From Aphrocallistes beatrix (Eukaryota; Porifera; Hexactinellida; Sceptrulophora; Aphrocallistidae), in contig OY725488.1 in NCBI GenBank assembly GCA_963281255.1, forward strand, positions 4,983,925 through 5,047,924: a stretch of 64,000 nt of DNA. Direction: 5' to 3'. The notes beneath the pieces were generated by a model. That model saw only the letters and a program-made list of their open reading frames with translations, had not been told where the DNA came from and made no database searches. This document shows, one piece after another, positions 9,480 to 62,243 of the stretch. The position numbers were made by a program, and so were the translations under genes. Each line of letters starts with the position of its first letter. The first letter of the stretch is position 1.

Positions 9480-10007
9480 TCCTTACTATTAAAACTCGAT
9501 TAATGTGTATGTATATGTGTTTATATATATACATCTCTGTAACGAATTGATTGAGGAAACTGCCAGGCACAGAAGGCTGATTTTTAGCTTGTCGGAGTCT
9601 TTTGGCTATGGCTCCACTAAGTTCTGAATTCAGACCAAAATGCCGACTCATCATGGAATTATGACGTCATTGTCACCTTTTTATAATTGGAAATTTCAGT
9701 TTGTCGACTATAACTCAGCCATTTTAGGTGATAGGAGGCTGAAGTTTTAATAGAATGTGTATATTAATACATCTCACAAATGATGAGACTGTCATCAAAA
9801 ATATGACTTATTACTGCTATGACGTCATCATTTCTCATCAAAAATTTAAAAATTGACAAATTTGATGATTTTTCGAGTGATATCGATTTTAACAGTAAGA
9901 CAGACATATTTAGATATGTTTTCTCCCTTATAATTAATCAATGTGATCCCAGACGCCCAAAGGGCGCGTCTGCCAGCCGCGGAGCGCATGCAAGCGAATC
10001 GCGCTTG
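9480..10007 (+). mobile_element. HLE, full length
   Basis: 5' TCCTTACTATTAAAACTCGA after A9479, short TA tract, body with several TGACGTCA-like palindromes, and 3' hairpin ending CGCTTG before T10008. The middle 3' hairpin is deleted here (CTGCCAGCCGCGGAGCGCATG). It keeps the shared 70-codon open frame at 9819. Confidence 0.85.
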
Positions 10008-11849
10008 TATCTAGAGAATACTGGTTGTCCTATGAGCCTGTTTAGTCTGTTAAGTATCAAATTCTTCAATTAGGCTAATTAAATAGATTCAACTTCTATA
10101 TATGACCTTGTTTTATTTTGTATCCGTGCTGTTGTTGTTTTTATTCTGTATTAATGTTGTTTTTTGTTTTTTCCTTTGTACCTCTTCATTGTACTTAGTG
10201 TTCTTTGTCAAATGGATATCAGCAGCTGTATTTGAATTCAATCAAGTCATTCTCATTTGTTGTCATAACCTGGAAGTGTAGAGTGTGTCAAACACACATT
10301 TCTAAAAAAATGTACTGCCCAAGAAGTTCTTACTTTTCACAAATCAAGTCTTTTTATATATTAAATATTTGCCGGAAATTTGGAACCAACAAACCTATGG
10401 TGATTCAAAAGAAGCGTTTTCAATTTTCAGCCATGATATAATTTGTAATATTTTAGTTTTTCTACGTCAAATAACTGCTATGTATAGTATATATCAATCG
10501 TTACTCCCATGATCAAATGGAATTTAATTTTCTAATTTTAAACCAGAATGTTTGTCTACTGCTATAAAAAGATACACCGCTTCATTAAAAGTCATAGGAC
10601 TTTTTTTGCATTCACTTTCGGAGCATTCCATTCCATTCTTCTAATAGCATTTTTTATCTTCTACAAAATAAATTTTAAACTACGATGTCAGGAAGTGTCA
10701 ACGATATTTTTTTGCGATTTTAAAATGTCAGTTCGTTTATAATTATATAATATTATTCCATAGTTTTCATAAATAATTATTATGGTTGATTATTGGCACT
10801 ATTCTTCATCATAAATAATGAAGAAGCATACATATATTCTTCACTGCACAGAAGAACAAAACAATATCTTCGATTTATCCGAGTTTATTTGTCCTCAATA
10901 GTTTGGAAGAAACTGCGCATGATCAGTTCACAGAAAATTCTCAAGCCTTAGAGAAGACAGGAAGGAATACCTGAAGCGAGCCGACATATCAACTGGAATG
11001 CGATACCCTTTTACACCCCACCTTCTAAATACCCGAGATTGAGTACGGGTTCTCAATACTCGGATGAAGACATGGTGATTGGTAGTGTTTCATCTTGCCA
11101 ATCTACCGCTGTTTTCGAAGAAGATTTTAGTTGGCCCACCCGTAAGCCTCTGAATGAATTATCAACTAAAGGTTTTCTTAACCGAGACAGTTGCTGAACA
11201 AGAAAATGTTTCCAGTAAAGAACTATCCTGTTACCTGATGATGCTATGTTCACAAGGTGAATTCTACTTCGATAGTGCCAATTTTGTGTGCATTGTCATT
11301 ATTACTTCTATTTATATTTATTACTTCCCCATATGTTATAACTTATTTATTAAAAGGTGTCGAGTTATAATGATGACACAAGAACCATATACGATGACGT
11401 CATAACCCACATATATGAAGCCACACAACAGTATTCCATTCAATTTTTAGACAATGATAACCTATAGGTGAATACTACTTATTATAGTAAGTCCCTATCA
11501 CAGAAAACGGAAATACGTATTTCTAGATTATGACAACTTTGTGCCACTATTGGATGACGTCATAGCGAGCATGCCTGAAGCCATAGAAAAAAACATTCTA
11601 CCAATCGATTTTTTAGGTCCAAACCTATTGGTCAACAATACTTTTTAAGTCTCTTTCTGCAACAGTAATACCTATTTCTAGATTATGACCACTTTGTGCC
11701 ACTTGAACGTGACATGCGAATCCACTGCTGAATCGGCCGCTAAGATAACACTCGTGTACAACTGCACTAATACTTTCAATTTTAGTTAATTTAGGTACCT
11801 ACCAGCATAGGCGGCGATTTGAGCAAAACTCGGGTAACAGTAGGCAAGA
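10008..11849. other. No gene recognised; one cryptic 81-codon open stretch
   Basis: AT-rich. The plus-strand stretch 10952-11197 is open for 81 codons without an ATG, has normal-looking composition (for example NWNAIPFYTPPSKYPRLST) and begins right after a TAG. I do not recognise it. It could be a relic exon. At 10205-10440 a WKCRVCQ segment faintly resembles the zinc ribbon of Merlin/IS1595 transposases, which is not convincing. At 11400-11710 two diverged copies of a segment with TTTCTAGATTATGAC lie in tandem. Confidence 0.3.
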
Positions 11850-12053
11850 AAGATAGCACCTGACTTAACTTAACCTTTAAACGAGATGACATCCTTAGTG
11901 CTTTCAGCTCACTAAGGTTTTGCAAGAGTGTAGGCTCAGATTACATTACCGAAGCAATGTAATTGAGAGTTAAATGCAAATGACTAGAGCGAGGTTAGAA
12001 CCCCTGACCTAAGTCTTGGTATTCGAACGCCCTAAGCACTACACTACCCAAGC
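11850..12053 (-). mobile_element. tRNA-derived SINE
   Basis: Read right to left from 12053: GCTTGGGTAGTGTAGTGCTT (A-box-like), then a D-arm/anticodon-like region, and GGGGTTCTAACCTCG (B box with one change from GGTTCGAACC). A non-tRNA body follows. This matches the head of tRNA-type SINEs transcribed by Pol III. No clear poly-A tail or target duplication was fixed. Confidence 0.6.
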
Positions 12054-13007
12054 AGATAAACCATATGAATTCAGAAAGACGAAATAGATAGATACGGTGA
12101 TGATAAAATCCTTACTTCAGGAGTTTTATTTTGGAAAGTTTGATTGTTGATTGATTTGGATATCATCATCACAACAATACAAAATGTCAAAATAATGATT
12201 GTAATGTCTAGCTTCAAAATACGTATGCATACATTGAATCCAAATTCAATATGTTTTTGACAATTCGAAAAATGAGTGAAATTTAACGATCTAAGTATGA
12301 TAAATTATTAGCTAATGTAGCTATTAAATTGGAACTATCACAGTAGATGGTGTATCCATTCTAGAATTAGTGGCAGAAAAAACTTTAGATAGAAATACTG
12401 TAATATGATTAATACTATACAGAATTTCAATGACTCCATCGAAGCTGATTAGGGGGAGCTATTTCGATAAAATCAGATCAGAGTAGAGCACTTGTTTCTT
12501 TTATCTAATTATGCTAAATTTTGATCAAACTAGCACATACAGGATGTGAATTTTGGAATCGAAACATGCTAATTCAGTGCATTGTGGGGAGAGGGGTTGT
12601 CCGAACTCTAACTTTAGCAACCATATCTCAAACAAAAAATAATTTTCTAGAAATTTAAACGCTGTAGGTCACCAAGAATCCTGCCTACAAAGTTTGATAA
12701 CGAAGTCCTTATAGAAAGCGGACCAATAATTAGTCAAGCTGTGGTCGGACATCTATTATATCATAAGTCATAAAATAACTTTTTTTAAATCTTATTATAT
12801 TGAAAGAGAGCACTAATCCTCTTCTATCGAATGGTACCAGATTTATTCAAATCTGATAATGGGAAGTTGGCTAAATTTTTACTCAAACTGTGCTCAGTCG
12901 AATATTGTGCCAACTTCACGCTCGTCTACTTTCTACGTATTAGCTCCTAATACATTTTGTACCATTAAATCCTAGGGTTGTCGAGAAATGGTGCAATTTA
13001 TCAAATA
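12054..13007. other. Noncoding stretch, nothing recognised
   Basis: AT-rich sequence with no convincing open frame or delimited repeat. A GAGAGGGGTTGTCC segment near 12588-12601 stands out only by base composition. Confidence 0.3.
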
Positions 13008-13548
13008 TCCTTACTATTAAAACTCGATTATTGTGTATGTGTATATATATATATGTAACGAATTGATTGAAGAAACTGCCGGTCATAGAAAGCTAATTTT
13101 TGGCATGTGGGAGTATTTTGGCTATGGCTCCAGTAAGTTCTGAGCTCAGAGCAAAATGTCGACTCATCATGGAATTATGACGTCATTGTCACATTTTAAA
13201 AAGTTAAGCAACACAGTTATTCGGGAATAACTCAGCCATTATAGGAGATAGAAGGCTGAAATTTTAATAGAATCCGTATACTAACATGTCTCACATATGA
13301 TGCAACTATCATCAAAAAATGATGACTCATCACTTTGTTATGACGTCATCATTACGCATCAAAAATTTTTAAATTCACAAATTTGGTGATTTTTCGAGTG
13401 ATATCGATTAGCACAGTAGGACAGACATATTTAGAGATGTTATCTCCCATATAATTAACCAATGTGACTCCAGGCGACCGAAGGGAGCCTCCGGCGGACA
13501 CAAAGTGTCCGCCAGCCGCGCAGCGCAAGCAAGCGCGAAGCGCGCTTG
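13008..13548 (+). mobile_element. HLE, full length
   Basis: Starts TCC after an A, with TA tract at about 13037-13052. All three 3' hairpins are present. Ends CGCTTG before T13549. A 2-base GC insertion lies in the terminal hairpin loop. Confidence 0.9.
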
Positions 13549-22839: not shown

Positions 22840-23380
22840 AGGAAAAATTCTCGATTCTCATGGATTACAGTTTCCAAGGCTTTGTATTAAAAGGCGAGGA
22901 TCAGGGAGGATTGGCATCATAAACCCCCCTGGGTTCTCTGTGCACTCTACAGAGTCTAGCAGGCACATGGTATATGGGAAGTTCATTATAGCATTTCCCT
23001 CTCCCGCCCTTAGCGTCTCAGTGGTTATAATTCTTTTAATTTTGTTTGAGGCATGACGAGAATCCCCTAGTAACTCACATCTCTAAAGCAAATAATTCGC
23101 AATATAGAAGCTAAGATTCAGAAAATACTAGTACCAAACCTGCTTCCAGAATCATAAACTTGGTGGCTATGGTACCTAGTAACTATGGTGACCTTCATTG
23201 TGTTGACTCAAATTTATACCCAGAATATGTATTTGGTTGTACAATACAAATTTTCCTAAATTTACCAAAGGGGGCGGCTGTGCCCCCTTTGCTCCCTCTA
23301 CTATGCTCCCCCCAAAATCTGCTACTGGTGGATCCTATTTATATTTTATTTAGTATTAGTGAATATTATAGTAACCCACG
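22840..23380 (+). promoter_or_regulatory. Presumed AP2A upstream region
   Basis: Non-repetitive stretch between T2 and the AP2A ATG. No clear TATA or initiator motif could be defended. Two in-frame stops (TAG TAA at 23369-23374) lie three codons before the ATG, which fixes the start but leaves the transcription start unknown. Confidence 0.3.
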
Positions 23381-23927: not shown

Positions 23928-23959
23928 GTCAGTTCCATATTTTATATTTCCGCTTAAGC

Positions 23960-26889: not shown

Positions 26890-26930
26890 TCCTTACTATT
26901 AAAACTCGATTAATGTGTATGTATATATAT

Positions 26931-28184
26931 CAAGCGCGCTTCGCTTGCATGCGCTGCGCGGCTGGTGGACACTTTGTGTCCGCCAGAGGCGCCCTATGGG
27001 CGCCTCGAGTCACATTGATTAATTATAAGGGTGATAACATCTCTAAAAAATCACCAAATTTGTCAATTTTTAAAATTTTGATGCTTAATGATGGCGTCAT
27101 AACAAACTGATGAGTCGTCATTTTTAATATTTGCCTTCTATCACCTAAAATGGCTGAGTTATGGTCGAACAACTGAAATTTCTGATTATAAAACAATGAC
27201 AATGACGTCATAATTCCATGATGAGTCGATATTTTAGTCTGAGCTCATAACTTAGTGGAGCCATAGCCAAAAGACTCCCACATGCCAAAAATCAGCTTTC
27301 TGTACCTGGCAGTTTCTTCAATCAATTCGTTACATATATATATATATATATATATACAGTAGAGTTCGCTTATTAGCAATTGCCTTATCAGCAAGATTCA
27401 CTTATTAGCAAGTTTTTTCAGTGCACAGAGCAAAGGTATAGGGATTCATGTATAAACAAGTTCGCTTATTAGCAAGTTCGCAAATTAGCAAGATTCGCTT
27501 ATTAGCAAGTTTTTTTAAGGTCCCAATGGACCAAAATGTATTAATTATGTTCCCTTATTAGCAAGTTCGCCTATAAGCAAGTTTTTCTCGTGCAAAACAC
27601 GACTTGCTAATAACTTAATAAGCGAACTTTAGTTCGTTTATTAGGAAGAACTTGCTAATAGAGATTATTCAGTATTACATATGTATTAATTAATTTACAT
27701 TCTTCAATTTGGAGGAAATTGTGGTTGCTTTTGAATAGAGTAGAAAGTTTCGCAAGTATTATATGTATGTATAAATTTAAAAGGTTTCTATATATAGGCT
27801 TTCAAAAGGTTATCTTATGTTAGTCTATAAGAGGATTCAATTGGCATTTTGGTATAATTCAGGGACGTAGACTTGGGGTGCGGATTGGTAGGACCATCCT
27901 TACATGTTTGTATTAGTGTCTATAGAGAAAGCAAAACTATTGGTGGGGCGACAGCCCCACCAACCCTACCGGTGCCTACGCCGGAGTACGCCCATGGGTA
28001 TTTAATGATATTTTATATTTATTACTGACGTACTTAGAGTCTATTTCATCGATTGGCTTTCATCATATTAATTGAATTGCTCTATTAGCAAGTTTTTCTC
28101 GTGCAAAACCCGACTTGCTAATAAGTGAACTCTACTGTAGTATATACACATACACAAACATTAATCGATTTTTAATATTAAGGA
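26931..28184 (-). mobile_element. HLE, reverse copy nested in HLE
   Basis: 3' hairpin end CAAGCGCGCTTCGCTTG at 26931 and 5' end near 28184. Its TA tract was invaded by the pogo-like MITE 27357-28137. This is the rare copy followed by A rather than T outside CTTG. Confidence 0.85.
27357..28137. mobile_element. pogo/Tigger-like MITE, 781 bp
   Basis: Ends CAGTAGAGTTCGCTTATTAG and the inverted CTAATAAGTGAACTCTACTG, bordered by TA on both sides. Many internal copies of CTTATTAGCAAG. At about 27860-27995 lies a smaller insertion beginning CAGGGACGTAG, probably hAT-type. No transposase. Confidence 0.85.
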
Positions 28185-28402
28185 TATATATATATATCTG
28201 TAACGAATTGATTGAAAAAAACTGCCAGGCACAGAAGGTTGATTTATGTTGTCAAAATGGGCTTTGTCATCTTCTTATAACTCAACGAGCTAAATTTAGT
28301 GCAAAATATGGCAATTTTCTGGCCTGCTTTATATAGTTATAATGGCATCATTTATATGCCCAATTATCGCAAGAAATCTCACTATGAACAGTTGTTTAGA
28401 AA

Positions 28403-29701: not shown

Positions 29702-29952
29702 TATGATGCAACTATCATCAAAAAATGATGACTCATCACTTTGTTATTACGTCATCATTAGTCATCAAAATTTTAAAAATTGATAAATTTGGTGATTTTT
29801 CGTGCGATATAGATTATAACAGTAAGACAGACGTATTTAGAGATGTTATCTACCTTATAATTAACCAATGTGACCCCAGGCGACCGAAGGGAGCCTCCGG
29901 CGGACACAAAGTGTCCGCCAGCCGCGCAGCGCAAGCAAGCGAAGCGCGCTTG
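29702..29952 (+). mobile_element. HLE, 3' half
   Basis: Starts within the ATGATGCAACTATCATC segment and runs to the terminal hairpin ending CTTG before T. Carries an intact copy of the shared 75-codon open frame from 29725. Confidence 0.85.
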
Positions 29953-30138: not shown

Positions 30139-30680
30139 TCCTTACTATTAAAACTCGATTAATGTGTGTGTATATATCTATATCTATATATATCTGTAAC
30201 GAATTGATTGAAGAAATTGCACTGCACAAAGAGCAGATTTTTGGCATGTAGGAGTCTTTTGGCTATGGCTCCACTAAGTTCTTAGCTCAGAGCAAAATGT
30301 CGACTCATCATGGAATTATGACGTCATTGTCACATTTTTAAAAGTTAAGCAATACAGTTATTCGAGCATAACTCAGCCATTATAGGAGATAGTTGACAGA
30401 AATTTTAATAGAATCTGTATACTAAATTACTTCACATATGATGCAACTATCATCAAAAATGATGACTCATCACTGTTGACGTCATCATTACACATCAAAA
30501 TTTTAAAATTTGATAAATTTTGTGATTTTTCGTGCGATATCGATTATAACAGTAAGACAGGCGTATTTAGAGATGTTATTTCCCTTATAATTAATTAATG
30601 TGACCCCACGCGCCCAAAGGGCGCTTCCGGCGGACGCAGTGTCCGCCAGCCGCGCATCGCAAACAAGCGAAGCGCGCTTG
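30139..30680 (+). mobile_element. HLE, full length
   Basis: Both ends present (A before TCC, T after CTTG), TA tract 30170-30195. Inserted about 190 bases downstream of the previous HLE. Confidence 0.9.
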
Positions 30681-30988: not shown

Positions 30989-31408
30989 CAAGCGCGCTTC
31001 GCTTGCTTGCGCTCCGCGGCTGGCGGACACTTTATGTCCGCCGGAGGCGCCCTTTATGCGCCTGGGGTTACATTGATTAACTATAAGGGAGATAACATCT
31101 CGAAATACGTCTGTGCTACAGTTGTAATCGATATCGCACAAAAAATCGCCAAATTTGTCAATTTTAAAAATTTTTGATTCGTAATGGTGGCGTCATAACA
31201 GAGTGATGAGTCTTTTTTGATGATAGTTGCATCATATGTAAGATATATTAGTATACACATTCTATTAAAATTTCAGCCTTCTATCACCTAAAATGGCTGA
31301 GTTAAGGTCGAAAAGCAGAAATTTCTAATTATAAAAAAGGTGACAACTCCCACATGCTAAAAATCAGCTTTCTTTGCCTGCCAGTTTCTTCAATAAATTC
31401 GTCACATG
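30989..31408 (-). mobile_element. HLE, 5' end lost
   Basis: Reverse copy from the CAAGCGCGC end to the CAATAAATTCGTCACAT segment. The TA tract and 5' tip are missing, and a segment near 31345 (TGACGTCATAATTCC through CCATAGCC) is deleted. Confidence 0.8.
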
Positions 31409-31737
31409 ATAAACCATTTTCAATTGGAAGATTCCTATGACCTAAACCGAATGGGAAAACATTAGTCGCATAATATTCATCGCCAGAATATTCGTCGCAT
31501 TGAGTACAAGTTTATTTATTTACCTAACTAAAAAGATCTAGTTAACCCATATCTCAGCCCATGGTCCTTACCTCGGCCCCAAATGTTTCCTTGACAGGTT
31601 AAATTTCCTATAAATAATCCTGAAATGCCTGAAATCGCAGAATTAAACTTTATACGCTCCTGCCTCAAATACTTAGAATCTCCAGGCATCGCGAACATGC
31701 ACAATGGTTAATACAACATAATATATTTCCAGTAAAT

Positions 31738-32989: not shown

Positions 32990-33156
32990 TCCTTACTATT
33001 AAAACTCGATTAATGTATATTTATTTATATACAAGCGCGCTTCGCTTGCTTGCGCTGCGCGGCTGGCGGACACTTTGTGTCCGCCAGATGCGCCCTTTGG
33101 GCGCATGCCAAAAATCAGCTTTCTACGCCTGGCAGTTTCTTCAATCAATTCGTTAC

Positions 33157-33187
<31 letters not shown>

Positions 33188-33236
33188 ATATATTTTTATA
33201 GATATATACACATTAATCGAGTTTTAATAGTAAGGA
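32990..33236. mobile_element. HLE tip with short reverse HLE nested in it
   Basis: A plus-strand 5' end (32990-33031) is followed at once by a reverse copy 33032-33236. The reverse copy keeps all three 3' hairpins, the CCAAAAATCAG segment, the TA tract and the 5' tip, but lost about 340 bases of the middle. Confidence 0.85.
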
Positions 33237-34563: not shown

Positions 34564-35108
34564 CAAGCGCGCTTCGCTTGCTTGCGATGCGCGGCTGGCG
34601 GACACGAAGTGTCCGCTGGAGGCTCCCTTCGGTCGCCTGGAGGTGACATTGGTTAATTAAACGGGATATATCATCTCTAAATATGTCCATCTTAGTTTTA
34701 AAATCGATATCACTCGAAAAACACCAAATTTGTCAATTTTTAAAATTTTGATGAGTAATGATGACGTCATAGCAAAGTGATGAGTCATCATTTTTGATGA
34801 TAGTTGCATCATATGTGAGACGTGTTAGGATACAGATTCTATTAAAATTTCAGCCTTCTATCTTCTATAATGGCTGAGTTATGCTCGAATAACTGTGTTG
34901 CTTAACTTTTAAAAATGTGAAAATGACGTCATAATTCCATGATGAGTCGACATTTTCGTCTGAGCTCAGAGCTTACTGGAGCCATAGCCAAAAGACTCCC
35001 ACATGCCAAAAATCAGCTTTCTGTGCCGGGCAGTTTCTTCAATCAGTTCGTACAGATATATATATATATATATATAAACAAACAATAATAGAGTTTTAAT
35101 AGTAAGGA
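34564..35108 (-). mobile_element. HLE, full length
   Basis: CAAGCGCGC end after T-A context (T follows CTTG on the element strand), all hairpins, TA tract 35053-35076, and 5' tip ending AAGGA before T35109. Confidence 0.9.
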
Positions 35109-38415: not shown

Positions 38416-39839
38416 CAAGCGCGCTTCACTTGATTGCGCTGCGCGGCTGGCGTCCTTTGGACGCCTATGCTCATATTGGTTAATTATAAAGTAGATAACA
38501 TCTCTTAATACATCTGTTTTATTGTTGTCATCGATATCACTCGAAAAATCATCAAATTTGTCAATTTTTAAATTTTTGATGCGTAATGATGACGTTATAA
38601 CAGAGTGATGAGTTATCATTATTTTATGAGAGTTGTATCATATTTGAGATATATTAATATACTCATTATATTAAAACTTCAGCCTTCTATCACCTGATAT
38701 GGCTGAGTTATAGTCAAAAACTGAAATTTCTAATTATAAAAAAGGTGACAAAGACGTCGTAATTCCATGATAAGTCGACTTTCTGGTCTGAGGTCAAAAC
38801 TTAGTGGAGCCATAGCCAAAAGACTCCAGCTTTCTGTGCCTAGTAGTTTCTTCAATCAATTCGTTACATATATACACTGCCTGACCAAAAGTATTGGAAC
38901 GCCACTATTTCCCAGTAAAATAGTATTAAAATGGTATCATTCATAGTAGACATTCAATCTAGTTAAGATTTCGATTTATTGAAAAGGGCTTAATAAGTCC
39001 AGATAACAATCACTATTCATATACTGTAAGGAGTTTTGTAATTCGTAGCTTTAGTATTTTGTGTGGGCCCCATTGACTATTTCAGATTATCCTACTCTTT
39101 TGACGTTAAGGGAAAGATCAAAAGAGTAGATTATCCTACTCTTTTGATCTTTCCCCCTTTATAATTTCTTTTAGTTCCATTTAAAGAGGTTGGTGTCATG
39201 TTGGAAGGTTGGTTTCTCCCCAGATTCTATTAATGGTAAATAAAAAGTGTTATAAAAAATCTTCAAAATCTTATTTATATAAAATGTTGAATTGACGTTT
39301 TGGTCCAAAATATCAGTGGACCCAATTGTTTACCATAAAAACAACCCCAAATTGAAATAGAACCCCTATATCCTAGGCTAAATACTGATTGTATTATGAA
39401 GACTGTCCATGGAGGACAGTCTTCATAATACAATCAGTATTTAACCTCTGATTCCTTTCCCTCCGGACTCTAATTCTCCCATCAGAGTTAAAGAGCCGAA
39501 TTCTTGTCTCATTACTCCAGATAATCCGACCCCAAACTTCAAAAGTGAAATTTTTATGTGCATGATAAAATGCTGACCTTTTTTCTCTTTGATATGGGTG
39601 GTTTGCGAGCTGTCATACAGGATCTGAATCCCAAATCCTTTATCCGCCTTCTTAGTGTTCTTTTTGAAAAGCCCCACTGCCTGATTACGTAAATTGTTCG
39701 AGATTTCGCACCTCTTCACCATAATGCAATGGTAATTTATTAAAGAGTATAATAATGAAATAGCGCAGTGAAAGAATAATTTAGCCGCTCATGCTCACAC
39801 ACACACACACACACATTCATCGAGTTTTAATAGTAAGGA
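38416..39839 (-). mobile_element. HLE interrupted by Tc1 element
   Basis: 3' end CAAGCGCGC at 38416 and body to CGTTACATATATA at 38874. After the Tc1 remnant the 5' end resumes as a CA-repeat and ATTCATCGAGTTTTAATAG up to 39839. The middle 3' hairpin is shortened. The shared open frame is preserved at 38440-38619. Confidence 0.85.
38875..39790 (-). pseudogene. Tc1-like transposase remnant
   Basis: Left tip CACTGCCTGACCAAAAGTAT after TA is a classic Tc1 end. Transposase pieces, right to left: a helix-turn-helix start (MVKRCEISNNLRNQAVGLF), IIWSNETRIRLFNSDGRIRV and CIMKTVLHG, then after a rearranged palindrome DILDQNVNSTFYINKIL and PTFQHDTNL. The first catalytic Asp is Asn (WSNE for WSDE), with several frame changes. 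Dead element inserted in the HLE TA tract. Confidence 0.7.
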
Positions 39840-40119: not shown

Positions 40120-40670
40120 TGCTTACTATTAAAACTCGATTACTGTGTATATATGTGTATATTATATATATATATATATATGTAACGAATTGATTGAAGA
40201 AACTGGCGGGCACAGAAAGCTAATTTTTGGCATGTGGGAGTCTTTTGGCTATGGCTCCAGTAAGTTCTGAGCTCAGAGCAAAATGTCGACTCATCATGGA
40301 ATTATGACGTCATTGTCACATTTTAAAAAGTTAAACAATAAGGTTATTCGAGCATTACTCAGCCATTATAGGAGATATAAGGCTGAAATTTTAATAGAAT
40401 CTGTATACTAGCATACCTCACATATGATGCAACTATCATCAAAAAATGATTACTCATCACTTTTTTATGATGTCACCATGACTCATCAAAATTTTTAAAA
40501 TTGATAAATTTGGTGATTTTTCGTGTGATAGATTATAACAGTAGGACAGATGTATTTAGAGATGTTATCTCCCTTATAATTAACCAATGTGACTCCAGGC
40601 GACCGAAGGGAGCCTCCGGCGGACACAAAGTGTCCGCCAGCCGCGCAGGCAAGCAAGCGAAGCGCGCTTG
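40120..40670 (+). mobile_element. HLE, full length
   Basis: 5' tip reads TGCTTACTATT (C to G change), TA tract 40150-40180, complete 3' hairpins ending CTTG before T40671. Confidence 0.9.
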
Positions 40671-41999: not shown

Positions 42000-42496
42000 T
42001 CCTTACTATTAAAACTCGATTAATGTGTATATATGTATGTATATATCTATCTATCTATATATATCTCTGTAACGAATTGATTGAAGAAACTGCCGGGCGC
42101 AGAAAGCTGATTTTTGGCATGTAGGAGTCTTTTGGCTATGGCTCCAGTAAGTTCTGAGCTCAGAGCAAAATGTCGACTCATCATGGAATTATGACGTCGT
42201 CACATTTTTAAAAGTTAAGCAATACAGTTATTCGAGCATAACTCCGTCATTATAGGAGATAGAAGGCTGAAATTTCAATAGAATCTGTATACTAACATAC
42301 CTCACATATGATGCAACTATCATCAAAAAATGAATACTCATCACTTTGTTATGACGTCATCATTACTCATCAAAATTTTTAAAATTGATAAATTTGGTGA
42401 TTTTTCGTGCAATATCAATTATAACTGTAGGACAGAGCCTCCGGCGGACACAAAGTGTCCGCCAGCCGCGCAGCGCAAGCAAGCGAAGCGCGCTTG
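42000..42496 (+). mobile_element. HLE, full length with small deletion
   Basis: Both ends present. About 45 bases are missing just before the 3' hairpins (GACAGAGCCTCC junction near 42435). A Tc1-like element follows within 14 bases. Confidence 0.9.
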
Positions 42497-43645: not shown

Positions 43646-43659
43646 TATATAAGCTACCA

Positions 43660-44104
43660 CCGCGCTTCACTTGCTTGCAATAATTATAAGGGAGATAACA
43701 TCTCTAAATACGTTTGTCCTACTGTTATAATCGATATCGCACGAAAAATCGACAAATTTTTCAATTTTTAAAATTTTGATACGTAATGATGACGTCATAA
43801 TAGAGTTATGTGTAATTATTTTTTGATGATAGTTGCATCACTTGTGAGGTATATTAATATACACATTATATAATAATTTCAGCCTTCTATCCCCCAAAAT
43901 AGCTGAGTTATAGTCGAAAAACTGAAATTATAATTATACAAAAGGTGACAATTAAGTCATAATTCCATGATGATGTGGACATTTTCGTCTGAGGTCAGAA
44001 CTTGTGGAGCCATAGCCAAAAGACTCCCCATGCCAAAAATCAGCTTTCTGTGCCTGGCAGTTTCTTCAATCAATTCGTTACGCACATATATATATATATA
44101 TATA
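43660..44104 (-). mobile_element. HLE, degenerate, ends in TA tract
   Basis: Starts CCGCGCTTCACTTGCTTGC and lacks the first two hairpins. The body continues to CGTTACGCACATATATATA. Two fold-back MITEs and another HLE occupy the position of its 5' end. Confidence 0.75.
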
Positions 44105-45459: not shown

Positions 45460-45959
45460 CAAGCGCGCTTCGCCTGCTTGCGCTGCGCGGCTGGCGGCTG
45501 GCGGACACTTTGTATCCGCCGGAGGCTCCCTTCGGTCGCCTGGAGGTGAGATTGGTTAATAATAAGGGAGATATCATCTCTAAATATGTCCATCTTAGTT
45601 TTAAAATCGATATCACTCGAAAAATCACTAAATTTGTCAATTTTTAAAATTTTGATGAGTAATGATGACGTCATAACAAAGTGATGAGTCATCATTTTTT
45701 GATGATAGTTGCATCATATGTGAGGCGTGTTAGTATACAGATTCTATTAAAATTTCAGCCTGCTATCTCCTATAATAGCTGAGTTATGCCCGAATAACTG
45801 TGTTGCAACTTTTAAAAGTGTGACAATGACGTCATAATTCCATGATGAGTCGACATTTTGCTCTGAGTTCAGAACTTACTGGAGCCATAGCCAAAAGACT
45901 CCCACATGCCAAAAATCAGCTTTCTGTGTTCGGCAGTTTCTTCAATCAATTCGTTACTG

Positions 45960-45990
<31 letters not shown>

Positions 45991-46229
45991 TATATATATA
46001 TATATAAATATACATTTGTCAAGGTACGTTTGATAAACCTAAGTATTTATTGAAAGCACACACACAGTTACAAAAATAATAGTGAACAGCATTAAGACTG
46101 ACTACTATGCTTGGTTGCTTATATACTAGTCCCTATTGTTAAGATATCTAAACTACGCCTAACTATCGCTACGTCGTACTAGTGTTGCTATGGATACTTC
46201 ACACATTAATCGAGTTTTAATAGTAAGGA
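45460..46229 (-). mobile_element. HLE carrying a solo LTR
   Basis: CAAGCGCGC end at 45460, complete body, long TA tract 45959-46011, then a 187-bp LTR-like insertion, then the 5' tip CATTAATCGAGTTTTAATAG ending at 46229. Confidence 0.9.
46017..46203. mobile_element. Solo LTR-like insertion, 187 bp
   Basis: Begins TGTCAAGG and ends ACTTCACA (TG...CA), bordered by CATT (46013-46016 and 46204-46207), where intact HLE copies have a single CATT. A 4-base duplication and TG...CA ends fit LTR retrotransposons. No internal region. Confidence 0.65.
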
Positions 46230-46539: not shown

Positions 46540-47760
46540 CTCTAAAGGGTAACACACAAATTCTGTTATAAGCTAATCATTAATTATAAAATTCTTATCT
46601 CGAACAATCTTGGTTATTATGGTCTTGAAATATTGTAATTCGAATATTTTCAATGGTTCTAAGAGATTTTTTCAGTCTAAGACCTAGAACTGTGTTTTGA
46701 ATGGTCAGGGGCGTAGGAAACTAGTTTATATTGATCCGATGTAGATTTTTACATTGTTGGACTTGATGATAACATTGTAAAGTATTATAAAAATTGGTCA
46801 ACTATATTGATATTTCTCATTAACAATTCGAGATGAACTGTTTTCATGCAAATTTCAATTATAATAATAATAATAATAATATACATTTATATAGCGCAGA
46901 TTCCATATTAATATGTTCAAGTGCCAAAAATTTTAGGTTGAACGTATAATACGTCAGTTATCCAGTCCAGGGACACAAAGTTGATTAGATAGAGACATTG
47001 ATAAGTGAATATCAAAGGAAAGACTGTCAACACAAAGAAACTACAAAACCAATCGGCCCGATAGGAAATCGCTTAAATATTTCAGCAAGCAATGTAAAAT
47101 AATTAGGGAATATTTTTATGTGAGTGAGTTTCTGCAAACACAAATACAACTGAAGTACAAAGTTCCATCTACGTATGTATTCCTTTTGATTGATACCTTG
47201 TGACACTTGAAAACAGTCGGTGTCAGGTGTCATGGCAGGGAGTCTTCCCTAGCCCTTTGCCTTGTGAAGCTCTACAAAGCTAAAGGCTAAAATTTGGTCC
47301 GGCATCAGCCGGCCAGCGTGCAACTCCGAGCAAAATATTGGTTCGGCAGCTGCCGGACCAGCCGGACCTGTTCCTACGCCCCTGAATGGTGAGTTTTGTA
47401 ATGAAAAGATGTGTCGTGGCATTAAGCGAAAATCGATAATCAGAGGCCACTGCTTTTGTAAAATGTCTTCATAATCGATATTCCATTACGATTTTGCACC
47501 TGATACCTTTTCATCATGGAAATATTTCACAAATTCAGAAATGAGAGATCATTAATTCGCAGGTTCAAATTAGGATTCAAAAAAATTTGCTTTTTTCACA
47601 TCTTTTTTCACATCACCAAAAATTCTGATCCAAATGGAAGCACAATTCCAGGTCTTAGACTCTAAAATCTTCTAAGATCATTGAAAATATCCGAATTATA
47701 ATCTCTAAATATCATAATAACCAAGATTGTTCAAGTTTTAGAAATTTTGTGGAGTATGTT
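46540..47760. mobile_element. Copy of the 44705-type MITE, interrupted
   Basis: 46546-46705 and 47385-47755 match the arms of the MITE at 44705-45447 (ATTGTAATTCGAATATTTTCAATG and inverse). The left tip is decayed (AGGGTAACACACAAATTCTG). Interrupted by the hAT MITE 46706-47384. Confidence 0.75.
46706..47384. mobile_element. hAT MITE, about 680 bp
   Basis: Ends CAGGGGCGTAGG and CCTACGCCCCTG. TGAATGGT precedes it and also overlaps its right end (CCCCTGAATGGT), so an 8-base duplication is likely but its first two bases merge with the element tip. Contains an (ATA)n run near 46860-46885. Confidence 0.8.
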
Positions 47761-47764
47761 GCCT

Positions 47765-48159
47765 ATGGCTCCCACAAGTTCTGACCTCGGCTCATCATGG
47801 AATTATGACGTCATTGCCAACTTTTTATAATTAGAAATTTCAGTTTTTCAACTAATTTAAAAGATAGAAAGCTGAAATTTTGATATAATGTGTATATTAA
47901 TATATCTCACATATGATGCAACTACCATCAAAAAATGATGCCTTATCACGCTGTTATGACGTCATCAATATGCATCTAAAATTTCAAATTGACAAATTTT
48001 GTGATTTTTCCGAGTTATATCGATTATAACAGTAAACATACGTATTTAGAGATGCTACTCCTTATAATTGATCAATGTGAGCCTAGGCACCCAAAAGGCG
48101 CCTCCGGCGGATACAAAGTGTCTGCCAGCCGCGCTGCGCAAGCAAACGAAGCGCGCTTG
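47765..48159 (+). mobile_element. HLE, 5' end lost
   Basis: Starts in the TATGGCTCC segment and ends in the terminal hairpin with CTTG before T48160. Confidence 0.85.
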
Positions 48160-48234: not shown

Positions 48235-48659
48235 CAAGCGCGCTTCGCTTGCTTGCACTGCGCGGCTGACGGATACTTTGAAGGCTCAAGCTCACATTGA
48301 TTGATTATAAGGTAGACAAAATTTGTAAAATTTCCAATTTTTCATGCGTAATAATGAAGTCATAACAGAGTGATTAGTCATCATTTTTGGTGAGCGCTGT
48401 ATCTTATTGAGACATATTAATATACACATTCTATTAAAATTTCAGCCTTCCATCATCTAAAATGGCTGAGTTATATTCGAAAAACTGAAATTTCTGTTTA
48501 TAAAAAAGGTGCGATCATAATTCTATAATGAGTCGACATTTTCGTCTGAGGTCAGAACTTAGTAGAGTCATTGTCAAAGGACATTTTCCAAAAATCAGCT
48601 TTCTGTGCCTGGTAGTTTATTCAGTCTACAAGCATTAATCGAGTTTTATAAGTAAAAAT
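48235..48659 (-). mobile_element. HLE, old copy without TA tract
   Basis: CAAGCGCGC end at 48235, shortened hairpin block, and decayed 5' tip CATTAATCGAGTTTTATAAG. There is almost no microsatellite between body and tip. Confidence 0.8.
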
Positions 48660-52637: not shown

Positions 52638-53070
52638 CAAGCGCGCTTCGCTTGCTAGCGCTGCGCGGCTGGCAGACACTTTGTGTCCGCCGGAGGATCC
52701 CTTCGGTCGCCTGGGGTCACATTGATCAATTATAAGGTAGATAACATCTCTAAAAACGTCTATCCTACTGTTAAAATCGATATCACTCGAAAAAACACCA
52801 AATTTGTCAAATTTTAAAATTTTGATGCGTAATGGTGACGTCATAACAGAGTGATAAGTCATCATTTTTTGATGATTACATCACATGTGAGGAATATTGA
52901 TATACACATTCTATTAAAATTTGAGCCTCCTATCACTTAAAATGGCATTAGTTATAATCGAAAAACTGAAATTTCTAATTATAAAAATGTGACAATGACG
53001 TCATAATTCCATGATGAGTCGACATTTTCGTCTGAAGTCAGAAAATCACAGCAATCGAGTTTTAATAGGA
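52638..53070 (-). mobile_element. HLE with internal deletion
   Basis: CAAGCGCGC end, all three hairpins and the full shared open frame. The segment from TCTGAAGTCAG joins directly to GCAATCGAGTTTTAATAGGA, losing the TA tract. Confidence 0.85.
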
Positions 53071-54588
53071 TGATATTTTCGCACCTTTTATGAATTTTCA
53101 AAGGTATGCCCTAGATTAGCTTTCAATGGATGCCCTGAAGGGCTTATTTTTTACTTAAATTGATGCAAAAAAGTTAAGTTTGCTTATAACCAGACTTAAC
53201 TCGATATTTTTAGTTTTTTTTGTAATGATTTGATAATTGAAAGTAAATGAAATATGTATATGTAACAAAACTTGGATGATGAGTAGCGGTTACATTGATA
53301 TCGTGTTTTAAATTCATCACTATTTGATTTGCTTATCACTTAGTACTTGATAAATAACGATGGTTTTTGTATTTAATTAATTGATTGTATTTATAGGCTT
53401 GAAAATCGGATTCTGTATTAGTCTCACAATGTTTCAAATTCTAAAGATACAGTAGTATATAAGAAAAATGGAGATGAATCTTATCTAATTCGCGAATAAC
53501 AAATATTATGAATCAATATTAATAATATTTACATTTGGCCTGCGACCCAAATAATGATGATTCCATCTATTTCATACCTGCGATTTCAAATAAATCAGGG
53601 ATTTATGTAGAACGAGCCAATCGGCAATAAAGTTTGCCACAATTCAAAAAGCATCAGAATCTATAGACATGACGTACACGTAATTTAATCAATTTTGAGT
53701 GAACGTGGCATTTAAAATGGTCCCATTGCGCCTATGTTTAGAGATTCCATGTCCCAGAATAATTTATAGTTGTTGGTCGACTAGACTGCTAATAATACTG
53801 TAAGTACTGCAATACTGCAAGTACAACTGAGGAAAGTTGTACAAATTACCTGACGAGAAAAGTCTCAGGTTCTGAAGTGGAAAGTGATAATGAGAATGAG
53901 GAGGAGGAGAAGGATGATTAAGTATGATCGTATTTTTATCATTGTTCACCTCGAGTTCCAGTATAGACCCATTTCAGTATTATGATCAGAAAAAGTCTCT
54001 TCCTCGATTATTGTCCCATCCTATGGCATTATCTAGGGTGCACTTTACACAAACGCAAATTAGAAATGCTTGATGAATTTGGGGATTGGGATGACTGGGT
54101 CGAAGTCTGTTAAATGCAAAATTTCTAATGGCATAGAATAGTCTAGAATTTAGAAATTTCCTCAATATCTCTTAATAACCCTACTTGAACTTGGGGTCAA
54201 AGGTATAAATAGAAAATTCCCACTTTCATTTTCACTTTCAGTTCACTTTCAATTAAATTTCACTTTCCTTCAACATTCCGAGTCCAATTAGGGTTAATTA
54301 AAAGATAGGATACATATCGCTCTTTTTACAAGTATGTCTTATTTTCTGATATTTACTCAAAATGGCACATTTAAAGAGGTTTTATTTAGATAAAATTGAA
54401 ACTTGCTCTCCCCATTCCCCCCCCATTAGATGTTATTCGACGTTTACTAGGTTAATTCTACTGAATTTAGACAATTTAATCTTATCCCTCCCGCATTCAC
54501 AAAGGTCTTATTCATTTAGCTGTTTTAAATAGATTTTCTTGAACAAGTCATGTATCCATCATTTTCATTTTTTATATAATTTTCTTAG
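53071..54588. other. 3' end of AP2A intron, no gene
   Basis: AT-rich. Closest to the acceptor are pyrimidine-rich stretches. CACTTTC repeats at 54222-54270 (CACTTTCATTTTCACTTTCA) are low complexity. No branch point can be fixed by eye. Confidence 0.4.
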
Positions 54589-56876
54589 GTGCAATCGATG
54601 AGAATGGCTCTCAACTGGGCCAATTGATCAATGACAAGAACTTAGGTGTTGTTACCAGCGCACTAGGGCTTTTACAGGAAATGGCTATTCACAATCCTGG
54701 GCCTATCGTGGGAGCAGTTAGTCATTCCGTTAGTCGATTGTCTAAACTTGTTCAAGGCCAACCTAACGACTTTGAAGATTATGGGTACCACTTTGTAGTC
54801 GCTCCTTGGCTGACTGTCAAGCTTTTACGCTTCCTCCAACATTTTACACCCCCTGATGATCCACTAATCCGCTCTAGGCTTAATGAAGCTTTGGACGCAA
54901 TCCTTAGTAAAGTTCAAGAGCCACCTCAAAGCAAAAAGATCTATCACTCTAATGCAAAAAATGCTATCCTTTTTGAATCAATATATTTAATTATACATCT
55001 AGAATATGAGCACGCGCTGATGATTCGCGCATGTAACCACATTGGTTCTTTCATGCAACATAAAGAAGCCAATCTACGCTACCTCACAATTGAGGTGATG
55101 GTCCGCCTCGGTGCATCTGAGATATGTCATGGTGCTGTTGTTAAACATCTTGAAACTGTACTTTCAACTCTCAAAACAGATCGTGACATATCCATTAGGC
55201 AACGGTGTGCTGACTTGCTCTATTCTATGTGTGACCATAGCAATGCTGAGGATATTATAAAAGAATTGCTTACATATCTTGAGAAGGCTGATTATGCTAT
55301 TCGAGAGGAGCTAGTATTGAAGATAGCTATTCTTGCTGAGAAGTTTGCAGTTGACTTTTTGTGGTATGTTAATACAATTTTGAATCTTATTCGTGTGGGA
55401 GGTGATTTTGTGAGTGAGGAGGTCTGGCACCGTGTTATTCAGATAGTCATCAACCGTGAAGATATACAAGGTTATGCTGCTAAGCTTTGTTTTGAGGCGC
55501 TACAAGCCCCGGCTTGTCATGAAACTATGCTCAAGGTTGGAGGATACATTCTAGGTGAATTCGGAAATAACATTGCAGGAGATTCTCGGTCTAGCCCATA
55601 TATTCAATTTCGCCTTCTCCATTCTAAATTTTTTCTTTGTTCTCATGATACCCGTGCACTACTACTCTCTACTTACATGAAATTTATGAACTTGTTTCCA
55701 GAGCTGCGTTCCACCATTCAATCTGAGCTCTCAAAAGAGAACCAGTTAAAGAATGCAAATGTGGAGCTGCAACAAAGAGCTGTTGAGTATCTCTCTCTTA
55801 GTCGAATTGGAAACGACACTTTGCTCAATAAAGTGCTTGAAGAGATGCCTCCGTTTCCTGAAAAAGAGAGCTCCCTTATGGCCAAGCTTCGCAAGAAAGT
55901 ACCATCCGTTCCTATATATAAAGAAGAAAAGATAGCTTCAGCTGGATCTTCTGGTGATCTACAACGCAATGTTAGCCCTGGGTCCCAGGTTACTGTATCA
56001 ACTCTATTAGAAACAGTAACGAAGAGATCACCAATTGCAAGTACTCCAGTTCAGCAACAGGGTAATTTATTAGAATTGGGAAATTCGGTGAATAATACTG
56101 TTATAATGGAAGAATTTCTAATTGCTCCTACTATGGGAGCCTCCCAATCTGCAGCGAGAAGCTTTGAAGAAGTAAAGAATGATTTTTTGTTGAAGAATAA
56201 TGGTATTTTGTTCGAGAATGAGTACATTCAAATTGGTGTCAAGACAGAATACAACCTTGGAATCGGGAAAGTAAATATATTTTATGGAAATAAGAGTAAC
56301 AGCCCATTCAATAATTTTTCGGTTAACTTGAAATGTCAGGAAGATAGCAACTCTTTAGAATTAACAAATCAGTCTATCCCGCCTACAAACATTGCGTCTG
56401 GTGCTCAAGAACAGCAGGGGATCGAAGTAGTGTGCCTTGGACAATTTTACTTACCACCATTCCTTGAAGTAAAATTTTCTGTTGCCGGTATGAATAATGC
56501 TTTTACTGTGCCACTTCCTATATTTCTTTCCAAATTCTTAGAAGCAACGCAAATGTCTCAGGACAATTTCTTCGCTAGGTGGAAGGCCCTCTCAGGTGAC
56601 AAAGAATCCCAGAAGATATTCGCAGCGACGAAAAAGATTGATAATGCTAGTATTACTAATGTAATTTCTTCATTCGGATTGGGAGTTTTAGAGAGTATTG
56701 ACCCCAATCAAAATAATTATGTTGGTGCTGGCATTGTGCAGATTAGGGCAGGGCCATCTGGTGTATTGCTCCGCTTAGAGCCAAATGATCAGACAAAGAT
56801 GTTCAGACTTACTATTCGGTCATCAAAGGCATCGGTCAGTCAAATTATGCAATCTTTGCTAAGTGACCAGTTTTAA
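54589..56876 (+). CDS. AP2A: AP-2 complex subunit alpha, exon 2 (residues 183-944)
   Basis: Second and last coding exon, open over 2288 bases to TAA at 56874. It carries the remaining trunk solenoid (APWLTVKLLRFLQ, SNAKNAILFESI, LRYLTIEVM, RQRCADLLYSMCD, FEALQAPACHETMLKVGGYI), ending near residue 620. A Ser/Thr/Gln-rich hinge follows (about 620-712), with a possible clathrin-box-like NLLELG. The ear, about 713-944, opens NNGILFENEYIQIG; Trp about 847 in FFARWKAL matches the conserved ligand-binding Trp of the platform subdomain. It closes SQIMQSLLSDQF, like other AP2A proteins. Total 944 residues, normal for the family (about 940-980). No frame damage, so probably functional. Confidence 0.95.
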
Positions 56877-57137: not shown

Positions 57138-57220
57138 TAAGCGCGCTTCGCTTACTTGCGCTGCACAGCTTGCGGACACTTTGTGTCCGCAGAGTCACCC
57201 TGCGGAGGCCTGGAGTTACT
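57138..57220 (-). mobile_element. HLE 3' end fragment
   Basis: Terminal hairpin and the GCGGACAC / GTGTCCGC hairpin only, ending in a degraded first hairpin. Marks the start of repeat DNA after AP2A. Confidence 0.75.
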
Positions 57221-59224: not shown

Positions 59225-61460
59225 GAATCTATACAGGAACAGTCCGAACAGATAGTTGATATTGGGCTTCTCCCAGAACATATTTCATTCAATCGAATTG
59301 AAGAGATTGTTAGCGTTGGACCTCCACCAAAACAAACAGGTAACGTATTTCCGTTTTCTGTATTTCAAAAGAAAAGACAAAATGGCGAAAATCAAAATAG
59401 AGATTGGCTTGTTTATAGTCAACAGAAGGGTGCATTGTTTTGCTTTCCATGCAGATTATTTGGACAAAACGTTTCTAAGAATCCAAGTAATTCCTTTTTA
59501 GCGTCTGTAAATGGATGTGGCCCAGATTCAAAATGGAAATACTTTTTGATCGTTTGCCTTTGCATGAAAATAGTACTAATCATAAACAATGTTATTTGGA
59601 ATGGCGTCAATTAGAAATACGTTTGTCAGATAAATCTTCTATTGATAATCAGCTCATTGCAAGAATTAACACAGATATATCAAAATAACGTCAATAATCC
59701 GATGCAACAATTCCCTCCGTTGCATCGGATTATTGACGTTATTCTATTCTTAGGTCAACGCGGCCTTTCATTTAGAGGAGATACTGATGAAATAGGAGAT
59801 GTACACAATGGGAACTTTCTAGGATTAATAGAACGAATTTATCATTATGACCCTGTACTTCGCGAACATGTTAGCAAGATACATGAATCTCAAAGAAAAG
59901 GGAAACGTATTCAGGCTCATTATCTCCCTAACGAACAAAATGAATTCATCCATTTATGTGCAAATAAGCTTCGTAGCTGTATTTCAATTGAGTGCACGAA
60001 TGCTAAATACTATTCTATCATGGTAGATGCAACTCCAGACACACACAGAACAAAATACTTTTATTTTACGCTATTTGGTACGTCAACAAGATGAATATAT
60101 AATCCAGGAACGCTTTTTCACATTTATAGATGAATTCGGCCAAACCGGTTCAGTGATCGCAGCAATGATCTTAAAGTTTCTCAAAAATGATGACATTCCT
60201 TTTCGAGAATGCAGAGTTCAGGGATATGACAACGCAAGCAACATGTCAGGAAAATTTAATGGTGTTCAAAGCCTGCTAAACCAAGAAAACCCACTTTGCA
60301 TCTTCTCTCCTTGTGGATGTCGTTCACTTAATTTGTGCGGTCTAATTCAGCTGCTTGTTGTAAAGAAGCTATTACTTTTTTTAGTATGATTCAAACTATC
60401 TACAATTTACATTAATCCAGTCCAAAAAGATGGGCTATTCTAATTCGCCACATTGGAGTCTCTCTTTACGGTATCTCTGGTACAAGATAGACTGACCGGA
60501 TTGCAAGTGTTCGACCATATAATAGGCATTTGCCATGAATCCAGTTATCCTTGAGTGAACTTCTCGAACTCAATCTTACTTCAAAAGCTAAAATCAAATA
60601 CGTTTTTTCATTTGAGTGTGTGTTCATGTCAGCAGTATGGTATACAATTTTGCAAGCTATAGACCCAAGGAATCAAGTGATCGAAGCACGAGATGCAACC
60701 ATTGAGGTTGAAGTAAGGAATTTGGATGATCTTCTGACTGAACTCAAAACAATAAGAGATAATTGGTTTTCTATCTTTGAGGAAGCAAAGAGTGTGGCAG
60801 AAGCTTTAAACATTAATACACAATTCCCAGAAGTCAGAAAACGGAAAAAAGATTAAATTATCTGATATGTGCGAATCTGAAATATCAGAAGAAAATTCAC
60901 AAATCACTGGTGAAGAGAAGTTTCAGAATATATTTCATCAAATCATTGACTCCGTTCGTGAAGGCTTAAATAAGAGGTATAAAGCAGCTTATAGGATAAA
61001 TGCGCTTTTCCAATTTTTGTGGAGATTTTCTGGAAATGTCTGAAGAGAATGCAATTAGTGCATGCAATGAATTTGAAACTAGGTATGGAGAAGATGTATC
61101 AGACAACTTTAAAATGAAATTCTGCATCTTTGCAAAAATACATATTGCCAACCTTTGTGATAATTCATTAAATCACTTCTCAACACGATCCGGAGACTGA
61201 AACTGGAAGGAATTTTTCCAAATACTTGTATCGCATTACGAATTTTCTTGACCTTACCTGTCACTATTGCTACAGCAGAACGCTCGTTCAGTAAACTTAA
61301 GCTAATTAAAAACTACTTACGAAGTACAATGTCACAAAGCAGACTGGTTGATCTTGCTTTACTAAGTATTGAAAGTGAGTTAGCAAGAACATTTGATTTC
61401 AACTCAGTTATTGACAACTTTGCTATGATAAAGGTTCGAAGAGGTTACTTTTAGAGAACT
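59225..61460 (+). pseudogene. hAT transposase (TTF/ZMYM1-like), broken
   Basis: Parts in order: a TTF-type zinc-finger region (KKRQNGENQNRDWLVYSQQK, GALFCFPCRLFGQ), FLGQRGLSFRGDTDEIGD, NGNFLGLIERIYHYDPVLRE, KYYSIMVDATPD (catalytic Asp region), CRVQGYDNASNMSGKFNGVQ, IFSPCGCRSLNL, and finally the dimerisation motif ATAERSFSKLKLIKNYLRST. All match hAT transposases of the ZMYM1-like type. It has at least five frame changes and a 25-base palindrome that replaced coding sequence at 59684-59743. A GGGCCCGGGTCAGTG motif at about 61571-61585 may be its right terminal repeat. Confidence 0.85.
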
Positions 61461-61655
61461 TTGTCTGTTATAATTACGTATATTTAGATGATGTAATAGA
61501 AATATATACTATTTATATGATTATTAAACTTACTAGATAGAAACTAAAATTTTCAGGGAAAATAATTAGTGGGCCCGGGTCAGTGTATCTTTTAAGGATT
61601 TAAAAAGATAATCCCCAGAATAAAAAAATATATTATATTGGGATTTTTATTAATA

Positions 61656-62158
61656 CAAGGCGCTTCGCTTGCTTGCGCTGCGCGGCTGGCGGACATTTCG
61701 TGTCCGCCAGAGGCTCCTTTCGGTCGCCTGGGGTCACATTGGTTAATTATAAGGGAGATAACATCTCTAAATATGTCCATCTTAGTGTTAAAATCTATTT
61801 CACTCGAAAAATCACCAAATTTGTCAATTTTAAAATTTTTGATTCGTAATGATGACGTCATAACAAAGTGATGAGTCATTATTTTTGGATGAAAGTCGCA
61901 TCATATGTGAGGTATGTTAGTATACAGATTCTATTAAAATTTCAGCCTTCTATATCCTATAATGGCTGAGTTATGCCCGAATAACTGTGTTGCTTAACTT
62001 TTAAAAATGTGACAATGACGTCATAATTCCATGATGAGTCGACATTTTCGTCTGAGCTCCGAACTTACTGGAGCCATAGCCAAAAGACTCCCACATGCCA
62101 AAAATCAGCCTTCTGCGCCCGGCAGTTTCTTCAATCTATTCGTTACAGATATATATAC

Positions 62159-62215
<57 letters not shown>

Positions 62216-62243
62216 TACAATAATCGAGTTTTAATAGTAAGGA
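61656..62243 (-). mobile_element. HLE, full length, longest TA tract
   Basis: Both ends present, a near-pure (TA)n of about 50 bases at 62160-62210, and all hairpins. The terminal hairpin lost two bases (CAAGGCGCTTCGCTTG). The shared open frame is intact (61592-61879 region). Lies outside the AP2A gene. Confidence 0.9.

Follow-up and report, generated by a model that had tools for sequence, protein, structure and literature searches.

Helitrons of the Helraiser/Helibat and HelibatN type are among the closest described counterparts of HLE, a repeat family of the hexactinellid sponge Aphrocallistes beatrix that we analysed in a stretch of 64000 bases (G000:C1:4983925-5047924, hereafter the window) and in the searched genome of 100.5 Mb in 28 contigs. 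With these elements HLE has in common a 5' TC, insertion between A and T (written A^T, the caret marking the insertion point), the absence of a target duplication and the absence of terminal inverted repeats (TIRs), as well as an HUH, two-tyrosine Rep/helicase, non-autonomous copies that share its ends, and de novo 3' ends. Compared with canonical Helitrons, the 3' end reads CTTG in place of CTRR, the palindromes abut or include the terminus rather than lying about 11 nt ahead of it, and the Rep/helicase has an OTU-like domain at its C-terminus and repeats at its N-terminus. HELPO2 of Pleurotus ostreatus, likened here by its published description (PMC4289320), also combines an A^T target, CTTG and a one-frame Rep/helicase, and differs in its subterminal hairpin and its host.

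A second group of relatives is formed by Helentrons and HINE elements, which two papers (PMC4067079, PMC5148889) characterise by insertion at TT, by inverted repeats in subterminal position and by a Rep/helicase to which an endonuclease is fused. HLE resembles Helentron, HINE and DINE-1 elements in its high-copy non-autonomous repeats, 3' palindrome, microsatellite, lack of a target duplication and the OTU domain of some partners; it differs in that none of the three characters just named was found for it. The proto-Helentron-Pi of Phytophthora, likened by description and not by protein (PMC4067079), shares the A^T target and the lack of an endonuclease but differs in its 5' TT and 3' CTAG.

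Target site and Rep/helicase partners of HLE

Because a Rep/helicase element with the same tips begins with nearly the whole of HLE, HLE is almost certainly a non-autonomous Helitron, about 550 bp long and mobilised in trans by such an element of the same genome. The first-pass annotation had named a larger copy encoding Rep/helicase as the support that its reading called for, and one was traced end to end at C2:3994039-4003543 (9505 bp). It starts A^TCCTTACTATTAAAACTCGATGA and ends CAAGCGAAGCGCGCTTG^T, which are the tips of HLE, and its frame of 1959 aa, open from stop to stop, contains PF14214 (1.8e-59) and PIF1 (4.2e-74), so that an HUH Rep fused to a PIF1-like helicase is encoded between HLE ends in this one element. 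Positions 1-21 and 51-539 of HLE match the start of the element (100% and 92%, the longer match lying within its first 511 bases), and positions 404-553 match its end (89%). The HLE-like start, about 510 bp, stops at a broken terminal hairpin in which CAAGCAAAATG replaces CAAGCGAAGCGCGCTTG, and near the 3' end a second, interrupted terminator lies ahead of the complete one. Since HLE is near-identical to these first ~510 bp up to the broken terminator, the two are related by the use or loss of an internal terminator: HLE is either a 5' part released by a working internal terminator or an ancestor whose broken terminator allowed run-on, and the data place neither of these first.

The Rep domain PF14214 (Helitron_like_N) matched 106 stretches genome-wide, a single element frequently contributing several of them, and had no match in 14 control genomes. 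By inspection, the Rep domains of the 30 best loci fall mainly into two clades, with 76% identity between L001 and L005, while L025 fits neither well (48% and 43%). The element on C2 described above belongs to clade B. Two clade A elements, C11:2035676-2045624 (9949 bp) and C2:4508787-4499201 (9587 bp), both open with A^TCTTATATATTAAAACTC and close with CAAGCGAAGCGCACTTG^T; their mutual homology halts within 3 bases of both ends, the 3' end being CACTTG, and the C2 copy has an intact frame. Their last 120 bp are shared with HLE at 89%; by eye their 5' ends are like that of HLE, and BLAST gave one weak match there (E 0.001). A 23-mer look-alike, TGCTGACCAATCAAATTCGATTA, was rejected as the clade A 5' end, as homology extends upstream of it to the true start at TCTTATATATTAAAACTC. 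The 3' third of clade A elements (L032 from about 8100, L034 and L036) contains a long minisatellite of ACATGCAGATACACCACGAGACGAATGTG-like units, situated between the Rep/helicase frame and the 3' end.

In Pfam scans, the clade A protein P0001 (1970 codons between stops) contained PF14214, PIF1, Pif1 2B and OTU above the cut-offs, and the clade B protein contained PF14214, PIF1, Pif1 2B and STPR above the cut-off with OTU below it (E 0.001); no endonuclease family was found by these scans in the Rep/helicase frames of either clade. In an alignment with Helraiser (7lcc) that scores 1048.8 bits, residues 214-1697 of P0001 correspond to residues 22-1495 of 1496. Its HUH motif, GLPHAH, lies in register with that of Helraiser, as does the tyrosine pair of its KYLYKY stretch; the catalytic pair of Helraiser is Y727/Y731. 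The STPR repeats (PF21107, E 7.7e-11) occupy residues 149-219 at the N-terminus of the clade B Rep/helicase, and no paper joining STPR with a Helitron was found in the literature searched.

The target site was evident from both flanks and empty sites. Genome-wide, the 17-mer of the 3' tip had 4519 exact matches and the 23-mer of the 5' tip 3520, with none for the reversed-pattern control of each. A precedes 3349 of the exact 5' tips (95.1%) and T follows 4439 of the exact 3' tips (98.2%), up to 91 of the latter being HLE-HLE joins in which the T begins the next HLE. Within the window, where A and T have frequencies of 0.32 and 0.33, A stands before all 16 matches to TCCTTACTATT (<=1 mismatch) and T after 14 of 15 matches to CAAGCGAAGCGCGCTTG (<=2 mismatches), the copy at 26931 being the sole exception, as had been noticed earlier. 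When the genome was searched with the joined flanks (75+75) of ten copies from the window, empty paralogs were obtained for three sites (9480, 13008 and 61656) as uninterrupted repeats across the junction. Twenty empty copies out of 50 matches listed were aligned (7, 6 and 7 per site), with no base gained or lost at any of the three junctions; 19 of them read A^T, and the other, at the 9480 site, reads T^T. Insertion at A^T without target duplication, which the first-pass annotation had proposed, thus held at all three usable sites of the ten and agrees with the flank counts.

By analogy with the published Helitron mechanism, the HUH, two-tyrosine Rep would nick at A^TCC, the helicase would then strip off one strand, G+C-rich 3' palindromes would mark CTTG as the stopping point, and the product, a single strand or a circle, would join a new A^T without duplication. 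Incoming elements may also be joined at the nicked 5' end of residents, a further step suggested by the 3'-to-5' joins of mostly unrelated copies described below.

Several observations weigh against the Helitron assignment. The evidence consists of sequence, no transposition, circle or expression having been observed. Seven of the ten joined-flank sites matched no paralogous empty copy, and HLE can be read as TCC...CTTG or shifted by one base, which leaves the assignment of a T ambiguous by 1 nt. The clade A frame is split in two in the C11 copy; a single clade B element was traced end to end, its ends set by likeness to the HLE tips; and the Helraiser comparison covers the clade A protein. 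At the 3' end, CTTG stands in place of the canonical CTRR in HLE and in the clade A and clade B elements, and HLE lacks the canonical palindrome of 16-20 nt located 10-12 nt before the end.

Among the other classifications, the partners of HLE may represent a proto-Helentron without endonuclease, like the case described in Phytophthora (PMC4067079). A closer kinship with HINE/Helentron elements had been suggested by the first-pass annotation, whose description of a TIR-less, duplication-free, A^T-targeting Helitron-type repeat stood while the kinship itself did not. A HINE/DINE-1-type origin, with a Helentron as the driver, would fit the 3' palindromes of HLE, its internal microsatellite and its lack of a duplication, as well as OTU, which is above the cut-off in clade A and below it in clade B and is included in the accessory list of Helentrons (PMC4067079). 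However, the target is A^T by empty sites and flank counts, the HLE consensus has no inverted end-to-end match above chance that could be a subterminal inverted repeat, the Pfam scans of both Rep/helicases are free of endonuclease, and the alignment of the clade A protein spans almost the whole of Helraiser; this alternative is very improbable and already largely refuted. Derivation from a DDE transposon, for instance as a miniature inverted-repeat transposable element, would suit a short, abundant, AT-rich repeat with no coding capacity but has a negligible probability and was rejected, given the missing TIRs, the missing duplication at the three sites with empty paralogs and the Rep/helicase encoded by a same-tip element.

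The termini of HLE

HLE has the canonical 5' TC, and its lack of TIRs was confirmed: when the first 60 consensus bases are set against the last 100, no inverted match is longer than 5 nt (shuffle mean 5.2), and a repeat-pair search of three copies returned five pairs, all internal, in the flank or TA-rich, with none bridging the two ends. The 3' tip was compared in 84 anchored sequences, which were not de-duplicated and include a few decayed internal ends; 51 agree in every base up to and including the T that follows, 11 show a 19-nt form, and a paired change on both stem sides of the terminal hairpin occurs among them in the 57138 copy only.

Predicted HLE hairpins end at the terminus, 2-5 nt ahead of it or about 32 nt ahead of it. 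The last 79 bases, a composite of copy variants, fold with a z of -6.4 against shuffles, chiefly through two upstream palindromes. For the isolated tips, the flush hairpin has a z of -2.0 (17-mer) and -3.0 (19-mer). When the 17-nt tip is placed in a 32-nt context, the predicted minimum pairs an overlapping upstream stretch and leaves CTTG unpaired, whereas for the 19-nt tip in context the flush hairpin is the predicted minimum; neither context piece stands out from its shuffles in stability (z -0.01 and -0.38). The hairpin flush with the 3' end that had been reported earlier is therefore recovered for the 17-mer alone and the 19-nt variant in context but not for the 17-nt tip in context, and it is one of two competing predicted folds. 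Because the context folds split and none stands above shuffles, termination by the flush hairpin can only be called possible.

CTTG had also been offered, together with the flush hairpin, as a possible mark of an undescribed subfamily. CTTG 3' ends are already in print for HELPO2 of Pleurotus (PMC4289320) and for Helraiser insertions that are truncated, the same paper citing them for maize as well (PMC4778049). HLE is new among Helitrons by its terminus, but its CTTG, being already published, is therefore no mark of a new subfamily by itself.

Orientation of joins between elements

Orientation-specific joining is the most interesting part of the HLE case. Helitrons whose 3' end abuts the 5' end of the next element have been described in bats (PMC4778049) and as a maize pair of unlike elements with a G^T junction (PMC2267711); in comparison with these reports, as far as they bear on such pairs, HLE offers 91 exact cases plus an orientation control, and a limited literature search found no published orientation count of Helitron joins. 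Counting exact matches genome-wide, for joins and spacer controls alike, we found the 3'-to-5' join GAAGCGCGCTTG^TCCTTACTATTAAAACTC without spacer 91 times and the head-to-head join at the same A^T, TAATAGTAAGGATCCTTACTATTA, not once. Three pairs of junctions lie 522-596 bp apart and thus mark runs of three elements. In a small control with a TA (2-bp) spacer, an arrangement that joined ends cannot produce, head-to-tail pairs numbered 4 and head-to-head pairs 3, indicating that palindromic joins are not simply lost. Random insertion would be expected to give about 0.7 joins from the exact tip counts, or 3.6 if the tips are about doubled, with the AT density taken from the window. The HLE 3' end is also joined exactly to a clade A 5' tip at five places; L101 couples a full HLE with an element of clade A type, and at the other four places what the upstream partner shares with the 3' end of HLE amounts to 34 to 53 bases. 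In L088 the upstream partner has only its last 30 bases and one 19-nt patch in common with HLE.

Kinship of joined monomers was assessed in the 38 of the 91 joins that were fetched with flanks, 20 of which had two scorable bodies. At 28 subfamily-informative sites, agreement within pairs was 0.55. The whole set of unlinked copies gave 0.51 (P 0.19), P was 0.24 when the comparison was made with unlinked members from other tandems, and 286 of 1500 partner shuffles reached the observed value. A subset of 14 pairs among the 20 had a mean agreement of 0.56 versus 0.50 (P 0.08). Whole-body identity was 92.9% in pairs versus 92.3% for unlinked tandem members (P 0.27) and 91.2% for all unlinked copies (P 0.02), a set with more diverged solo copies, and was reached by 62 of 1500 partner shuffles. 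Two of the 20 pairs exceeded the 99th percentile of unlinked tandem members and three the 95th. From the percentile and shuffle results, a small share may be true duplicates: two to three of the 20 scorable pairs look like duplicates and the rest look unrelated. Private changes, as a sign of the younger monomer, were lower upstream in 11 pairs and downstream in eight, with one tie (P 0.51).

We tentatively prefer, as an unproven explanation, that a resident origin A^TCC nicked by Rep may also be the integration site for another element's strand, by which unrelated and even cross-family elements would be stacked head-to-tail in one orientation. If true, such origin-directed insertion would explain the 91 to 0 joins, the mostly mixed monomers and the near-equal counts with the 2-bp spacer (4 and 3). 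Homologous recombination of an extrachromosomal HLE circle with a resident copy is a possible if somewhat doubtful alternative. It predicts exact joined ends, a single orientation and mixed monomers, all of which are observed, it covers both orientation and unlike monomers where interiors are alike, and circles with precise joined ends are described for Helraiser (PMC4778049); on the other side, the partners in L088 and L101, few as these cases are, offer little homology.

The joins are unlikely to be concatemers produced by rolling-circle copying of one element or by terminator bypass. Such an origin accords with orientation, with 91 exact joined ends free of any host base and three runs of two junctions, with the identity slightly above that of all unlinked copies and with the two or three pairs over the percentile limits, but it fails for unlike monomers: identity is no higher than among unlinked tandem members, the fairer yardstick, agreement at subfamily sites is not raised (P 0.19 to 0.24), and in L101 the partner of HLE is of clade A type. 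Re-insertion at random into the 5' A^T of residents, one of two readings given for the maize pair (PMC2267711), is less probable still; it fits mixed monomers and the exact G^T junction, yet it would yield head-to-head joins in equal number, as the spacer pairs nearly do, and far fewer joins than the 91 counted.

Other arrangements of HLE tips were seen at individual loci. L099-L103 contain another non-autonomous family, about 750 bp long in L103, which combines clade A 5' ends with a 3' end like that of HLE and likewise forms head-to-tail runs. Positions 139-408 of L060 (C1:1717900-1719250) contain tandem HLE 5' tips in a 60-bp double unit ahead of a complete copy, and the same locus has a head-to-head pair with a 4-bp spacer, possibly the birth of a satellite. 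Doubled 5' tips also occur in L061, L062, L075, L079, L095 and L098, and the first 100 listed 5' tips include four same-strand clusters <=60 bp apart (11 of the 100 rows). By eye, L097 (C6:3434080-3435380) has two HLE head to head with a 19-bp palindromic 3' hairpin alone between them, such that the hairpin adjoins a 5' end on both strands.

HLE in the window and its wider meaning

The repeat family with two asymmetric ends is real: pairing of both tips (<=5/23 and <=4/17 mismatches) gave 13 copies in the window, in addition to further fragments, and a search with a consensus of seven copies assigned 8328 of the 64000 bases (13.0%) to HLE, fragments included. Complete copies lie at 9480..10007 (+; 528 bp; empty paralogous site A^T, with T^T in one of seven empty copies), 13008..13548 (+; within a palindromic repeat, with the 19-nt 3' tip form; empty paralogous site A^T), 30139..30680 (+), 34564..35108 (-), 40120..40670 (+; 5' tip TGCTTAC) and 61656..62243 (-; empty paralogous site A^T). 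A resident copy begins with its 5' part at 26890..26930 (+) and resumes at 28185-28248 beyond the copy nested in its TA stretch at 26931..28184 (-), which itself holds an inserted repeat and has the exceptional 3' flank A. Both tips are also present at 33032..33236 (-; 205 bp, with an internal deletion), which is adjoined by a 5' tip and TA stretch only at 32990..33031 (+); at 38416..39839 (-), with foreign sequence within the TA stretch; at 42000..42496 (+), with an internal deletion; and at 45460..46229 (-), with an insert of ~200 bp behind the 5' tip.

Partial copies include a 3' half at 29702..29952 (+), a 3' part at 47751..48159 (+), copies truncated at the 5' side at 30989..31411 (-; 3' tip present) and 43657..44100 (-), and a 3' end at 57138..57219 (-) with the outer pair of the tip altered on both sides (TAAGCG...CGCTTA). 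Diverged copies lie at 48235..48658 (-) and 52638..53074 (-), the latter with a variant 5' tip. HLE tips also occur outside the range 9480..62243 to which the family had been assigned, at 2852, 3512 and 7561; these include a 5' part at 2758..2852 (-) and a 5' tip at 7561..7604 (+) that is followed, by eye, by a clade-A-type Helitron 5' end. The TA-rich stretch reported near the 5' tip was seen by eye in 11 of the 13 two-tip copies, sometimes beyond an insert. Foreign repeats lie inside it at 26931-28184 and 38416-39839 (by eye), and the stretch looks, by eye, like a place where other transposons, and HLE too, tend to land.

The window also contains an AP-2 complex alpha subunit at 54543-56876, of which 54588-56873 matches solved AP-2 alpha chains along its length, and by eye a frame at 23375-23965 resembles the N-terminal part of AP-2 alpha. 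Open frames with a likeness, by eye, to a Tc1-type transposase and to a hAT-type fragment lie at 43071-43529 (-) and 59615-60094 (+), respectively.

Taken together, HLE is an unusually complete case, since one genome supplies the high-copy repeat, a Rep/helicase element whose tips are identical to those of the repeat, and empty sites that are clean. The clade B element, with its HLE start and broken terminator, is a natural example of the gain or loss of an internal terminator. Perfect head-to-tail Helitron pairs are an old puzzle, read differently in the bat and maize reports insofar as these treat them, and the orientation and spacer counts of HLE make it testable.

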